Shown here: positions 19,568 through 34,526 of the stretch, piece by piece | Layout of the letters: every line of letters starts with the position of its first letter | How positions within the stretch are numbered: position 1 is the first letter of the stretch | Origin: Nitrospinota bacterium | Lineage (GTDB): Bacteria; Nitrospinota; Nitrospinia; Nitrospinales; VA-1 | Direction: 5' to 3' | Assembly (NCBI GenBank): GCA_009873635.1 | Contig: WAHY01000020.1 | Coordinates: 1 to 34,526, forward strand | Length of the DNA stretch: 34,526 bases | Notes under the pieces: model-generated | Seen by the model: the letters and a program-made list of their open reading frames with translations, nothing else | Databases searched by the model: none | Told to the model about the DNA's origin: nothing | Made by a program: the position numbers and the translations under genes

Positions 19568-20674
19568 ATGGAAAACAGCCGTAAAATCCGACTGTTAAAG
19601 CAAACTGACCTGCTCAGTTTTTTCGATGAATCGACCCTGGCAAAGCTGGTTGAACATTGCCGGGAAATTTCTCTTGAGCCAAAAGAAGTTCTCTTTCATG
19701 AAGATGACCTTGAAAATGCCATGTATCTGATTCTCGAAGGAGAGATCGAAGTTTTTAAAGGTCCCAAACAAATAGCGGTTTTAACTCCGGGAAACTATCT
19801 GGGAGAAATGTCACTGATTGAATCCAAAGCCCGTTCCGCCTCGGCCCGGGCTGAGCAGAAAGCCTTGCTCATGGAAATCAATGAGGAACATTTTCATACC
19901 TATTTGGCGTCAGAGCCACAGGCTCTTCTTTCCATCATGCGTACTTTATCAGGCCGTGTACGCAGTGATCTTGAAACGATGATGAAAGATATGCGGAAAC
20001 TGAGTATCTTCACCCACGATATCAGGAATTACCTGAGCACCCTGGGGCTGGCGGAACTGTCCCTCGAGGACACTATTGAGCTATTGGGAGGCACCAACCC
20101 TGATCATAAAAAAAGAGAAGGACTGGAAGACATGGAGAAATGTCAACATGTTGTCAAAACAGTTCGAACCAACCTGATGGAGCTTCTCGATACCAGTTTA
20201 AATCATATTAAGAAAGTTAAAACCGAGTATAAAAAATCAAAATATTCTCTTTTACCCGTTATCGAAGAAACTGCGGCTGGGCTTGCCACACATCCACAAT
20301 TAAAAAATAAAAAAATCAATATCCTCCCTCAAGGGGATTCATTCGAAGCAGTTTTTAATCCATTAGATATCCAGCGTGTCCTGCAAAACCTGATTATCAA
20401 TGCCGGATATGTTACTGAAAACGGCGGCAAGGTAGACGTAGGGATCAATAAAACAGACAGGGCCTTAAAGGTCAGTATAACGGATAAAGGCTGTGGCATT
20501 CCTGAGGAAGTTCAAGAATATCTTTTCAAAGATTCCTTAACAACAAAAAGTGATGGGAATGGACTCGGCTTGCTTTCCTGCAAGGGAATCATCGAGGAAA
20601 ACCACCAGGGTAAACTCTGGTTTGAGACCGAAACCGGGAAAGGAACCACTTTCCACTTCACCCTCCCCGCATAA
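19568..20674 (+). CDS. Soluble histidine kinase with N-terminal cyclic-nucleotide-binding domain
   Basis: 368 residues with no membrane segment. Residues about 10-125 form a cNMP-binding (CAP_ED) domain: LLSFFDESTLAKLVEHC, VLFHEDDLENAMYLILEGEIEVFKG, LTPGNYLGEMSLIESKARSASARA. A coiled linker (about 125-145) leads to a dimerisation helix with His150 in FTHDIRNYLS, the phospho-acceptor. The ATPase domain has the N box LQNLIINAGY, G1 ITDKGCGIPEE and G2 KSDGNGLGLLSCKGI, and ends TETGKGTTFHFTL. All kinase boxes look intact. Sensing is thus probably of a cytosolic nucleotide or partner. No response regulator is adjacent, so it is an orphan kinase here. The start has only a weak ribosome-binding site. 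Confidence 0.88.
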   Translation: MENSRKIRLLKQTDLLSFFDESTLAKLVEHCREISLEPKEVLFHEDDLENAMYLILEGEIEVFKGPKQIAVLTPGNYLGEMSLIESKARSASARAEQKALLMEINEEHFHTYLASEPQALLSIMRTLSGRVRSDLETMMKDMRKLSIFTHDIRNYLSTLGLAELSLEDTIELLGGTNPDHKKREGLEDMEKCQHVVKTVRTNLMELLDTSLNHIKKVKTEYKKSKYSLLPVIEETAAGLATHPQLKNKKINILPQGDSFEAVFNPLDIQRVLQNLIINAGYVTENGGKVDVGINKTDRALKVSITDKGCGIPEEVQEYLFKDSLTTKSDGNGLGLLSCKGIIEENHQGKLWFETETGKGTTFHFTLPA

Positions 20675-30225: not shown

Positions 30226-30300
<75 letters not shown>

Positions 30301-30325
30301 TTTTTCCATCGTGACAACCAAGCAG

Positions 30326-30399
30326 GGCGCCGTCGCCAAGTGGTAAGGCAGAGGTCTGCAAAATCTCTATCGGCGGTTCGAGTCCGCCCGGCGCCTCCA
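30326..30399 (+). tRNA. tRNA-Cys (anticodon GCA)
   Basis: A complete cloverleaf of 74 bases with encoded CCA. Acceptor GGCGCCG pairs with CGGCGCC. The anticodon arm GAGGT-CTGCAAA-ATCTC shows GCA, with one G-U pair. The T-arm GGCGG-TTCGAGT-CCGCC is perfect. No clear terminator hairpin follows, only a pyrimidine-rich stretch. Confidence 0.97.
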
Positions 30400-30938: not shown

Positions 30939-31946
30939 ATGACATCAAAACTAACAGGCCCACAAAAAGCTGCCATCTTATTGATGACAATAGGGGAAGA
31001 AGCTGCTGCCCAAGTGCTAGCGAATATGGACGAGCGTGAAATTCAGAATATTGGTAATTACATGGCTGCTCTAGGTGATGTAGATGTTAGCGACATGGAC
31101 AGTATCAATAAAGAATTTTATAATATCGTTGAGTCCGGAACTGGAGGTTTGGGCATTGCCGGAATGGACTTTCTGAGGACGGCTCTGATGCAGGCTCTCG
31201 ACCCGGCCAAGGCAACCGAAATTTTGAATAACATAACGGCGCCGGGCGAGGAAATGGGCGGTGGGCTGGAAACGGTCCGCATGCTGGATCCGAAAGTTAT
31301 CTCATCTTTCATTGTTAACGAGCACCCTCAAACTGCGGCGATTATTCTCGCTCACCTTGAGCCACAGGTTGCCAGTCAAACTATTCGCGAAATACCAGAA
31401 GAAAAGCGCATGGAGATTCTGCATCGTCTTGCAGCACTTGAACGCGTTGCTCCGAATGTTATCCGTGAATTGGATGAAGCATTACAGGCAGAGTTCCGTT
31501 CATCGGGTGCAGTTTCAGGTAACAAATTAGGTGGTGTTGAAGCTGCTGCCGAGATCCTTGGTTCTTTAGACAGGGCCTCAGAAACATCTATACTGTCTGC
31601 TATGGATGAGGTGGATAAGGATATGGCGGACGAGATCCGTAACCTGCGCTTCACCTTCGAAGATATTAAAAAAATTGATGACGCAGGCATCCAGCTCGTC
31701 ATGAAAGAGATTAACCAGGAAGATCTACTGATTGGATTGAAAACGGCAAGTGATGAGTTGAAAGAAAAACTATTCGAAAATATGTCCGAACGTGCGTCGA
31801 TGATGTTGAAGGAAGACCTCGAGTCACTCGGGCCTATGAAAATCAGCGAAGTTGAAGCTGCCCAGCAGAAGGTTATCGCGGTTGTTAAGAAACTCGAAGA
31901 AGATGGCAAGGTTATTGTTAGTGGTGGCGGGGATGAGATGGTCTAG
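30939..31946 (+). CDS. fliG: Flagellar motor switch protein FliG
   Basis: 335 residues, the normal FliG length, all three domains present. The N-terminal domain starts LTGPQKAAILLMTIGEEAAA. The middle domain has EHPQTAAIILAHLEPQVASQ, the EHPQ motif. The C-terminal domain has FTFEDIKKIDDAGIQLVMKE and LFENMSERASMMLKEDLESL. FliG joins the MS ring to FliM and contacts MotA to make torque. At the helix normally reading D-D-R-x-I-Q, this protein has DDAGIQ, so the usual Arg is absent. The tail ends VSGGGDEMV. It is alone here, with its own promoter and a terminator about 100 bases on, instead of in a fliF-fliG-fliH cluster. The ribosome-binding site is weak. Confidence 0.93.
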   Translation: MTSKLTGPQKAAILLMTIGEEAAAQVLANMDEREIQNIGNYMAALGDVDVSDMDSINKEFYNIVESGTGGLGIAGMDFLRTALMQALDPAKATEILNNITAPGEEMGGGLETVRMLDPKVISSFIVNEHPQTAAIILAHLEPQVASQTIREIPEEKRMEILHRLAALERVAPNVIRELDEALQAEFRSSGAVSGNKLGGVEAAAEILGSLDRASETSILSAMDEVDKDMADEIRNLRFTFEDIKKIDDAGIQLVMKEINQEDLLIGLKTASDELKEKLFENMSERASMMLKEDLESLGPMKISEVEAAQQKVIAVVKKLEEDGKVIVSGGGDEMV

Positions 31947-32160: not shown

Positions 32161-32530
32161 TGGCCTGCCCCATTAAGTTGTGTCACCCTTTAAGTTAGTA
32201 TTTCCACCTTTGGCGCAATCGTTTCCGTTGCTGGAGGCTGATAATTCAGTGCGCTATGGGGTCTAAACTGATTGTATTCTCTCCTCCAGTTTTCTATTAA
32301 GACCTTAGCTTCCAGTAAAGTTGTAAAGATTTCTCCATTCAACAGTTCATCTCTGAGCTTTCCATTAAAGGATTAATTGTATCCATTTTCCCAAGGCGAA
32401 CCTGGTTCAATGAATAATGTTTGAACTCCTAATCGTTCCAACCAGTTTCTGACTACTTTAGCTGTAAACTCAGGGCCGTTGTCAGAGCGAATGAAGCCTG
32501 GAAGATATCTATATGTTTTTGATAGTTGTA
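32161..32530 (-). mobile_element. Remnant of an IS3-family insertion sequence (right-end part only)
   Basis: The 3' third of an IS3-type transposase gene reads on the minus strand. After its stop a likely terminal inverted repeat starting TGGCCTGCCCC runs from 32161 into AAGTTGTGTCACCC. The left part of the element, including the helix-turn-helix OrfA and most of OrfB, is missing. The remnant abuts the motA stop at 32533. The left boundary is inferred from where transposase similarity ends. Confidence 0.7.
32190..32528 (-). pseudogene. Truncated IS3-family transposase (OrfB, DDE domain) with internal stop
   Basis: About 110 codons of the OrfB C-terminus. It reads GFIRSDNGPEFTAKVVRNWL (second catalytic Asp in SDNGPEF), IEPGSPWENGYN, a TAA stop (32374-32376) where the family has Glu, then SFNGKLRDELLNGEIF, LIENWRREYNQFRPHSALNY and a natural stop at 32190. 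The lost Glu is the last D of the DDE triad region (ESFNGK), so even a full-length version would be dead. The N-terminal two thirds are gone. A single G-to-T change in GAA would give the stop. Confidence 0.88.
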
Positions 32531-32532
32531 AG

Positions 32533-33300
32533 TTATGATTGTTGTTCATCTCTTGATAAGAAAGAATTCATTTGTTCTGTAACTAACAAATGATGCGATT
32601 TTCTTTTAATACCAATAATTCCTGCATGGATAACTTTAATCAAGTGAATTTCGCTATCTGTACGAGTTGATAGTTTCACCGCGATTGGATTAAAAACAAG
32701 ATTGGATATTAAAATACCATAAAATGTAGTATTAAGTGCTACAGCTAGTCCAGGGCCAATCATGCTGGGGTCTGATAAATTCTGCATCATTTGAATTAAA
32801 CCAATTAATGTACCCATCATTCCAAAAATTGGAGCTTGTGCACCCATAAATCGAATAATACTTTGTCCTTGCGTATGCCGTTCTTTTACAGAATTTATTG
32901 ACTTTGAAATCAAATCGTTTATATCTTCAACTTTATAATCATCTACTATCATTCTTATTCCTTGTTCAAAAAAACGATTTTCTAAAAATTCGTGGTGGTT
33001 TTCTAATCCCTTTCTTCCTTCATTTCTATATTTTTTTAAAAGAGTAATAATTAAATTAATATATTCAAGGGGGTGATGATTGTCAGGTTTAAATGCATTT
33101 ACAATAACGGGCACCAAGGCAAATATCTTTGAATAATGAAATGCAATAAAAGCTGTTGAAATAGTACCGCCAGCAACAATAAAAAAAGAGCTTAAGCTTA
33201 AAAAAACATCAATTTCGCCACCGCGAAGTATGGCGGTAACAATTAAAATAACTCCCGCCAAAACCCCTATAAAAGTACCGAAATCATATTTTTTTGTCAT
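32533..33300 (-). CDS. motA: Flagellar-type stator protein MotA
   Basis: 255 residues with four membrane helices: about 8-27 and 33-52 at the N-terminus, and the pair PIFGMMGTLIGLIQMM and MIGPGLAVALNTTFYGILIS (about 155-200). The two channel prolines (AQAPIFGMMGT and NLVFNPIA) are kept, as is the cytoplasmic charged patch (RNEGRKGLE) that touches FliG. It should form the five-fold stator ring around a MotB dimer. It is unlike ExbB in length and loop. It lies downstream of the MotB-like gene on the minus strand after 40 bases, the reverse of the common motA-motB order. It is very AT-rich. Its stop is next to the IS remnant, but the C-terminus looks complete. Confidence 0.92.
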   Translation of the reverse strand: MTKKYDFGTFIGVLAGVILIVTAILRGGEIDVFLSLSSFFIVAGGTISTAFIAFHYSKIFALVPVIVNAFKPDNHHPLEYINLIITLLKKYRNEGRKGLENHHEFLENRFFEQGIRMIVDDYKVEDINDLISKSINSVKERHTQGQSIIRFMGAQAPIFGMMGTLIGLIQMMQNLSDPSMIGPGLAVALNTTFYGILISNLVFNPIAVKLSTRTDSEIHLIKVIHAGIIGIKRKSHHLLVTEQMNSFLSRDEQQS

Positions 33301-33340: not shown

Positions 33341-34525
33341 TTATGTAAATTTCTTTTTGATATTTTTATCCCTTATTATTTCAATTTCGACTCTATTGGC
33401 CATAGTTTTGTTTTTCTTAGCCATTCTTAAATTAGACTGTCTGGTCGAGTCATAACCTGTGATTACCGTTGAATTTTCTGGAAACCTGTATTTCTTATTG
33501 AATACTCTTGCTATTGTATTAGAACGTGCGACAGATAAAGTAAAATTGTTAGAATATTTTTTAGATATTTTTTGGCTATTTTTTAATTCTTTTTTATCGG
33601 TGTAGCTCTCAATTCTTATTTGCTTGATTCCTCCCAAAGAAATCATATCTTTAAATTTAGAGTTTAAGCGATTTAAGCCTTTTCTAGATAACTTAATATC
33701 CCCAGGAATAAACAAATCAGAACTCGGAAAAATCAACCTAACCTCATCAGCATCATTTCGTATTATTGTTTCAGGGTCAACTCCGGATTTTACAAGTTCT
33801 TTAACTTTGCCAATAATTTTTAATTCTTGTTCGTTAAGACTAATATTGTTTGGTCTATTTAGCTCTACTTCCTTATTGTTCCAAGTAGAAAAGAAAACTT
33901 CAAACTTTTCATAATCTTGATTGCTAATAGAAAAGAAAACAACAAAAAAACAAAGTAAAACAGATTGAACATCACAAAAAGACACAAAAAAATCTGATCC
34001 GCCAACAAATTCTCCGGAATTAGATTTGAGTTCTGCATTTGCCGAATCGATCTCGCCCTTATTTTTCTGTTCATTGGTTTTTAGTTGTTGACTTTGTAAT
34101 AATAAACCAGATTCATGTTCTAATAAGTCAGCTATTTTTTGATCATACTCGTTTTCATATTTTTTAAGCTTGATTGTGATATCATCAACGGAGGCTTTAT
34201 TTAGGTTCTGAGCTTTAATTGTCTTATCTCCTTCTAGAACATTAATATAAAACTTAATAGCCTGATTGATTTCATCCCCCTCATAATATCCACTGCTAAC
34301 TTTTATTGCCTCATTTATTAGAGTTTTGTAGCCCTGCTTTATTCTTTCCGTAGTATTTATAGGTGCACGCCCTATGTCTTCATTAATTTCATCGGACATT
34401 GATTTATTCTTTAGCTTATCATTTGATTTTATTGTACCCTCAATATTTTTTTTTAGGCTTTCATTTTCAGCCTCTAAACTTGCAAGGACACCCTTTAAAT
34501 TCAATACCTCCTCAGATTCTTTTTC
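33341..34525 (-). CDS. MotB-like OmpA-domain protein with long N-terminal coiled-coil extension (5' end open)
   Basis: At least 387 residues are readable from a TTG at 34504, and the frame continues without a stop to the edge (EKESEEV before it), so the start is probably outside. Residue numbers are from that TTG. Residues about 1-165 are hydrophilic and charged, with coiled-coil-like runs (LASLEAENESLKKNIEG; KLKKYENEYDQKIADLLEHE). A MotB-type helix follows (about 168-195): SDFFVSFCDVQSVLLCFFVV, with Asp178 at the place of the proton-binding Asp. QDYEKF follows, then the OmpA-like peptidoglycan-binding domain (about 260-380) with ESYTDKKE, TLSVARSNTIARVF and NRVEIEI. Ordinary MotB has about 25 residues before this helix. 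GGAGG lies only 2 bases from the TTG, too close to serve it. Confidence 0.85.
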   Translation of the reverse strand, partial: EKESEEVLNLKGVLASLEAENESLKKNIEGTIKSNDKLKNKSMSDEINEDIGRAPINTTERIKQGYKTLINEAIKVSSGYYEGDEINQAIKFYINVLEGDKTIKAQNLNKASVDDITIKLKKYENEYDQKIADLLEHESGLLLQSQQLKTNEQKNKGEIDSANAELKSNSGEFVGGSDFFVSFCDVQSVLLCFFVVFFSISNQDYEKFEVFFSTWNNKEVELNRPNNISLNEQELKIIGKVKELVKSGVDPETIIRNDADEVRLIFPSSDLFIPGDIKLSRKGLNRLNSKFKDMISLGGIKQIRIESYTDKKELKNSQKISKKYSNNFTLSVARSNTIARVFNKKYRFPENSTVITGYDSTRQSNLRMAKKNKTMANRVEIEIIRDKNIKKKFT

Positions 34526-34526
34526 T

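Follow-up and report, generated by a model that had tools for sequence, protein, structure and literature searches.

An extended MotB with a long N-terminal arm, genetically linked to a class-I adenylate cyclase in Nitrospinales, suggests a stator connected to second-messenger signalling

The window analysed here, a 34,526 bp stretch that makes up the whole of contig C20 in the 2.6 Mb genome (G000) of a marine, Nitrospina-like member of the Nitrospinota, ends within a gene for a true MotB carrying a long N-terminal extension. Extended MotB proteins (MotBx) recur in the Nitrospinales, where their genes are closely linked to one for a class-I adenylate cyclase (CyaA); an extended MotB beside a cAMP-making enzyme suggests a motor wired to cell signalling, beyond swimming. 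The reading that we favour, tentatively and at close to an even chance, is a flagellar-type stator whose B-subunit arm would form a cytoplasmic docking and regulatory platform for second-messenger signalling.

The readable frame runs through 394 codons without a stop, and MotA lies 40 bp downstream. Pfam MotB_plug matches residues 177-213 above its cut-off (E 2.6e-7), and the channel helix, FFVSFCDVQSVLLCFFVVFF, carries Asp185 (residue 178 when counted from the TTG at 34504), a single helix with an ion-binding Asp being a MotB feature. The OmpA-like domain is weak in this copy (Pfam OmpA, residues 273-362, E 0.005, below cut-off) and strong in canonical members (E 9e-16); the family profile matches solved MotB/PomB periplasmic domains. 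The original prediction, made from the window's letters, had recognised the helix with its Asp and the OmpA-like domain, and had placed at least 165 residues before the helix in a frame still open at the edge. Both points held, the count now being at least 173, with the contig ending at 34526. This departs from the short tail of ordinary MotB, against which the extension had been set from the start: among 78 MotB-like ORFs at loci from other taxa, a sample rather than a census because the loci were picked by channel and OmpA similarity, the median is 20 residues ahead of the helix and the maximum 100, the latter from another Nitrospinia genome.

Table 1. Coordinates of the features discussed; positions refer to the window unless a locus handle precedes them.
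Feature	Position	Strand	Remarks
Extended MotB-like stator B subunit, D-type	33341..34525	(-)	394 codons readable, 5' end cut by contig end
N-terminal extension, putatively cytoplasmic, residues 1-173 readable	34007..34525	(-)	~108 more residues expected from G010
Channel helix, residues 177-203	33917..33997	(-)	Pfam MotB_plug 177-213; 28/32 identity to G010 around helix
Channel Asp185 codon (GAT)	33971..33973	(-)	
Plug/linker region	33710..33916	(-)	Pfam; position inferred from MotB homology
OmpA-like peptidoglycan-binding domain	33356..33709	(-)	Pfam E 0.005, alignment; divergent, Asp and Arg of TD...S.AR kept
MotA, PomA-like	32533..33300	(-)	Equivalents of R88, E96, T158, T185, T186 and P151 kept; GC3 0.207
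IS3-like transposase remnant	32163..32504	(-)	83-86% like other copies in genome; sits where CyaA starts in G010 and G002
fliG	30939..31946	(+)	Neighbour beyond IS remnant; adjacency probably accidental
PilZ genes after B-type MotBx	L118:10424-10819, L121:8811-9185, L129:10243-10650, L133:9119-9508, L134:8311-8700		

The readable extension has 34% charged residues and contains no hydrophobic segment (maximum KD19 0.22). Its heptad periodicity exceeds that of shuffled sequences (z 2.2 in the partial stretch of the window; 4-5 in most full-length homologues), which agrees with the charged, heptad-like and cytoplasmic extension first described. Structural models were built from eight sequences; AlphaFold placed helices at residues 2-53, 56-80, 84-99 and 110-155 of the window extension with low-to-moderate confidence, and at 2-74, 85-174, 179-200 and 212-260 of a canonical extension (pTM 0.31, pLDDT mostly 60-83). 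A helical, coiled-coil-like extension is supported by these data, and homology to MotB would place its N-terminus on the cytoplasmic side.

The nearest full-length homologue, in genome G010, has 500 aa with 280 residues ahead of the helix. Nearly the entire readable frame aligns to it at 43% identity; the channel helix reaches 87.5% (28/32), the periplasmic part 45% and the extension 32%. A match was found in 39 of 60 relatives, in many of which the frame spans 500-580 aa. MotBs of that length, with extensions of roughly 275-290 residues, occur in about 30 Nitrospinales genomes; in most full-length relatives about 272-288 residues precede the helix. The contig end inside the gene and a sharp drop in GC near the insertion sequence (IS) remnant might point to a frameshift or an assembly error that joined two genes, an outcome that the original prediction had itself raised. 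The same layout in homologues of many genomes speaks against this, and no identical repeat spans the join, since the other IS copies of the genome are only 83-86% alike; on these grounds the join is rejected as extremely improbable and the gene taken as real. Nor did the extension turn out to be routinely a separate protein, the frame being broken only in G022 and G032 out of about 20 homologous loci. The homologue search advised at that stage found extension and MotB helix within one protein in many relatives, next to CyaA, MotA and a pentapeptide-repeat protein (Penta, 283 aa).

In the A-type line, most members of which have the channel Asp at about 284-300, the genes lie on one strand in the order MotBx-CyaA-MotA-Penta, with intergenic gaps of 0-89 bp (L037); the genomes are mostly MAGs, and operon structure was read from gene spacing. 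This cassette is present in 19 of 20 relatives' loci, the remaining one being cut by a contig end; the 19 include G010, with the order MotB-MotB-MotA-CyaA-Penta. Across the other genomes with an A- or D-type MotBx (32, two of them untestable owing to contig ends), CyaA lies within 5 kb of MotBx in all 30 that are testable. CyaA matches Pfam PF12633 and PF01295, and an NCBIfam model at E 2e-133, below the curated cut-off of that model. Upstream of the cassette lies a divergent unit with an AmpG-like transporter, UPF0227 and a response regulator. At the same place in G042, G044 and their relatives (L073, L074), CyaA-Penta is found with MotBx and its MotA cleanly missing. In the G010 locus (C44, L033:7724-10933), a single MotA is preceded by a tandem of two distinct extended MotBs, of 530 and 500 aa, which may form a heterodimeric B pair. 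Within the window, positions 19568-20674 encode a cNMP-binding domain fused to a histidine-kinase-like part; this protein, one of about 20 cNMP_binding matches in the genome, is a possible cAMP target. The cyclase does not depend on the stator, given that CyaA-Penta occurs without MotBx and MotA in a sister lineage (genus g14), G016 and G024.

The window MotA (255 aa) has PomA as its best PDB match (E 1.7e-43), and its NCBIfam matches are MotP/PomA models. The FliG-facing pair Arg90/Glu98 (PomA R88/E96) is kept, the Glu being absent from B-type relatives, and equivalents of PomA Thr158, Thr185 and Thr186 are present, residues which we take to mark Na+ use. Judged by these residues, the stator is more likely Na+-driven than H+-driven. 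Of the proton channel first proposed, then, the helix and its Asp stand, with the residues pointing more to sodium, and the description of MotA as ordinary is right overall, except that its C-terminal tail lacks about 20 aa relative to those of G010 and G002. The MotA proteins of the window and G010 are 82% identical, and the genes of both genomes look maintained, as judged by the conserved channel helix and a MotA dN of 0.12 against near-saturated dS, the channel being under the strongest constraint.

FliG and/or FliM is present in every genome having an A- or D-type MotBx, and the four genomes without FliG and FliM (G001, G004, G056, G057) are also without MotBx. Among the tether, the gate and the other task envisaged in the original prediction, gene linkage narrows the choice to a signalling connection; there is no sign of a non-flagellar task, since the FliG-facing residues of MotA are kept and FliG and/or FliM occurs in the genomes. 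MotBx-MotA could instead be a non-flagellar ion-driven machine that powers or senses something else with a cAMP output, as its tight linkage to CyaA and its position apart from the flagellar genes, in addition to ordinary MotAB, would allow; the conserved FliG-facing residues of A-type MotA and the absence of MotBx where both FliG and FliM are missing make this distinctly unlikely. The nearby fliG of the window was considered as a functional link and rejected: its adjacency is likely accidental, since fliG lies on another contig or at a distant locus in relatives and the IS remnant stands between. The tRNA-Gly and tRNA-Cys genes lie at 30226-30399, and the minus-strand ORFs overlapping them are spurious.

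The same conserved residues, and the presence of FliG/FliM, would also suit an arm that serves an ordinary flagellar stator mechanically or positionally (as a spacer, an assembly aid or a gate near MotA and FliG) and has no part in signalling, the CyaA linkage being a regulatory convenience. In Salmonella, the MotB N-terminus lies near MotA and FliG and gates the channel, a tag on it altering channel gating (PMC7564593). No ordinary MotB of about 270 aa was found in G000, where all four MotB_plug proteins are extended, a lack that is uncertain since the assembly is 95% complete, and short MotB was likewise not found in G010, so the extended MotB may drive the flagellum in these genomes. However, most relatives own a separate ordinary MotB of about 270 aa, in many of them some 25-35 kb from fliM, and three extended-MotB lines are persistently tied to CyaA, PilZ and receiver domains. 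We consider a purely mechanical arm somewhat unlikely.

The PilZ link belongs to the B-type line, with the gene order MotA-MotBx and the Asp at about 284-329, in which a PilZ-domain gene directly follows MotBx, above the Pfam cut-off in five loci (Table 1). The A and B extensions are homologous (hhalign probability 99.9, E 3.2e-31 over 232 columns); as controls, the reversed profile gave 1.3% and an unrelated coiled coil 0.2%. A conserved protein of about 210 aa comes after the PilZ gene; the one tested gave no Pfam match. In the C-type line, more than 300 residues precede a channel resembling that of E. coli (SWKVAYADFVTAMMAFF). One of its members, in the window genome itself (L116:4216-6351, G000:C32, 711 aa), and the A-like L245:1922-3745 (G030:C188, 607 aa) combine, within a single polypeptide, an N-terminal receiver domain with a long helical stretch, the channel helix and OmpA. 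Homology between the D-type extension of the window and the A/B extensions was not detectable by hhalign (probability 0.2-1.7%), so the D-type partner may differ; a motif match seen by eye between them (Y..GD...) was rejected on this ground. Nitrospinia bacterium OFTM173 encodes a MotB with a shorter helical extension of about 100 aa (L163:1092-2039), for which homology to the A/B extensions was also not detectable; a sensor kinase-like gene and several receiver-domain genes follow it.

As a member of the cassette, the window copy is atypical, both displaced and divergent. CyaA and Penta are not adjacent to it and lie on contig C2 of the same genome, and the IS3 remnant stands 29 bp from the MotA stop. 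In the MotA tree, the window and G010 form the sister group of the remaining cassette MotAs (A clade 100/99), and window MotA is 82% identical to G010 and 48% to G013, whereas for the CyaA of its own genome the figures are 84% (G013) and 76% (G010). GC3 is 0.207 in the window MotA versus 0.37-0.64 in other window genes. G002 holds a second, D-type cassette (MotA 86% like that of the window, CyaA, Penta, IS3) beside its canonical one. The canonical MotBx of the window genome is a pseudogene (L069:12273-12691, G000:C2) with stops and with arm and channel deleted, residues 1-26, 354-375 and 390-484 being left; it adjoins an IS1595-like transposase (L069:12859-13527) upstream of the intact CyaA and Penta. 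The window pair, with its kin in G010 and G002, is a divergent low-GC3 version, probably either transferred or paralogous. The simplest history has the genome acquiring a D-type cassette by transfer, or retaining it as an old paralogue, with the CyaA half then falling to IS3 and the native pair decaying. The low GC3, the IS3 remnant, the truncated MotA tail, the loss of the linked CyaA and the native pseudogene would also fit a selfish or decaying relic, in which a low-GC fragment had been transferred in among mobile elements and its extension was drifting with no function; such a relic is very unlikely in view of the absence of stops, the channel helix identical to G010 at 28 of 32 positions and the low MotA dN relative to dS. 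A viral-contig scan found no relative, and a phage or viral origin was rejected.

By homology, the complex would be of the MotA5MotB2 type and the flagellar class, probably Na+-driven. The N-termini of MotB would then lie on the cytoplasmic side, in the middle of the ring of MotA subunits, and the usual short tail would have lengthened into an arm of about 280 helical residues that projects into the cytoplasm. Because peptidoglycan anchors MotB as MotA rotates, the arm should stay still, like a shaft or mast. It would couple the state of the stator (engagement, load, ion flow) to second messengers, with the co-encoded class-I adenylate cyclase as its presumed main partner in the family; in the divergent, probably acquired window copy, an IS element would have taken the place of the linked cyclase. 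Among the roles weighed, a docking and regulatory one appears best supported because linkage to CyaA, PilZ and receiver domains joins the precedents of the MotB N-terminus and of stator-cyclase contact: in P. aeruginosa, MotC binds and stimulates the cyclase SadC, and the PilZ protein FlgZ is involved (PMC12288467). Counting against a signalling role are CyaA-Penta without a stator, the separation of the window MotB/MotA from CyaA, the unalignable D-type extension and the low-to-moderate AlphaFold confidence. A bolder form, in which the Nitrospinales PomAB-like stator controls the class-I cyclase through the MotB arm, ion flow or load setting cAMP, with parallel PilZ/c-di-GMP and receiver versions, is unlikely; if true, it would make a rotary motor a sensor with cAMP output.

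Among known systems, the pair resembles PomA/PomB and MotP/MotS (TGI4 flagellar ion transporters) in its best MotA match, PomA, and in the key Arg, Glu, Thr and Pro kept, and differs from PomB and MotB, with their short cytoplasmic tail, in the ~280 residues of extended MotB. A 2025 survey of MotAB diversity describes terminal extensions of A subunits and differences in the plug and OmpA of B subunits (PMC12505986); a search of its text, within a literature scope of open-access PMC, returned no B-subunit coiled coil and no Nitrospinota. Zorya ZorAB is likewise a 5:2-type motor whose B subunit binds peptidoglycan and which has a long helical extension in the cytoplasm (PMC11890865). The Zorya extension, however, is the C-terminus of the turning A subunit, whereas here the N-terminus of the anchored B subunit forms the long cytoplasmic appendage of what would be a 5:2 motor. 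Identity with Zorya was rejected: the 255-aa MotA is without a long C-terminal tail, there is no PADLOC match, and ZorC, ZorD and ZorE are not among the neighbours (in the window these are the IS remnant and fliG, in relatives CyaA, Penta and AmpG). Surface sensing by MotCD-SadC-FlgZ of P. aeruginosa is similar in that a stator works with a PilZ protein and with a cyclase making a nucleotide second messenger (PMC12288467). It differs in using a diguanylate cyclase and a MotC contact, with no MotB arm described, whereas the Nitrospinales link is one of gene neighbourhood, to a cAMP-making cyclase. To our knowledge, the known cases of motors reporting load or surface contact involve c-di-GMP and loose protein contacts. 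The lineage-wide operon of extended MotB and cyclase, together with the PilZ-adjacent and receiver-fused versions, offers natural linkages and fusions for testing how load or surface contact on a bacterial motor is passed on to second messengers.
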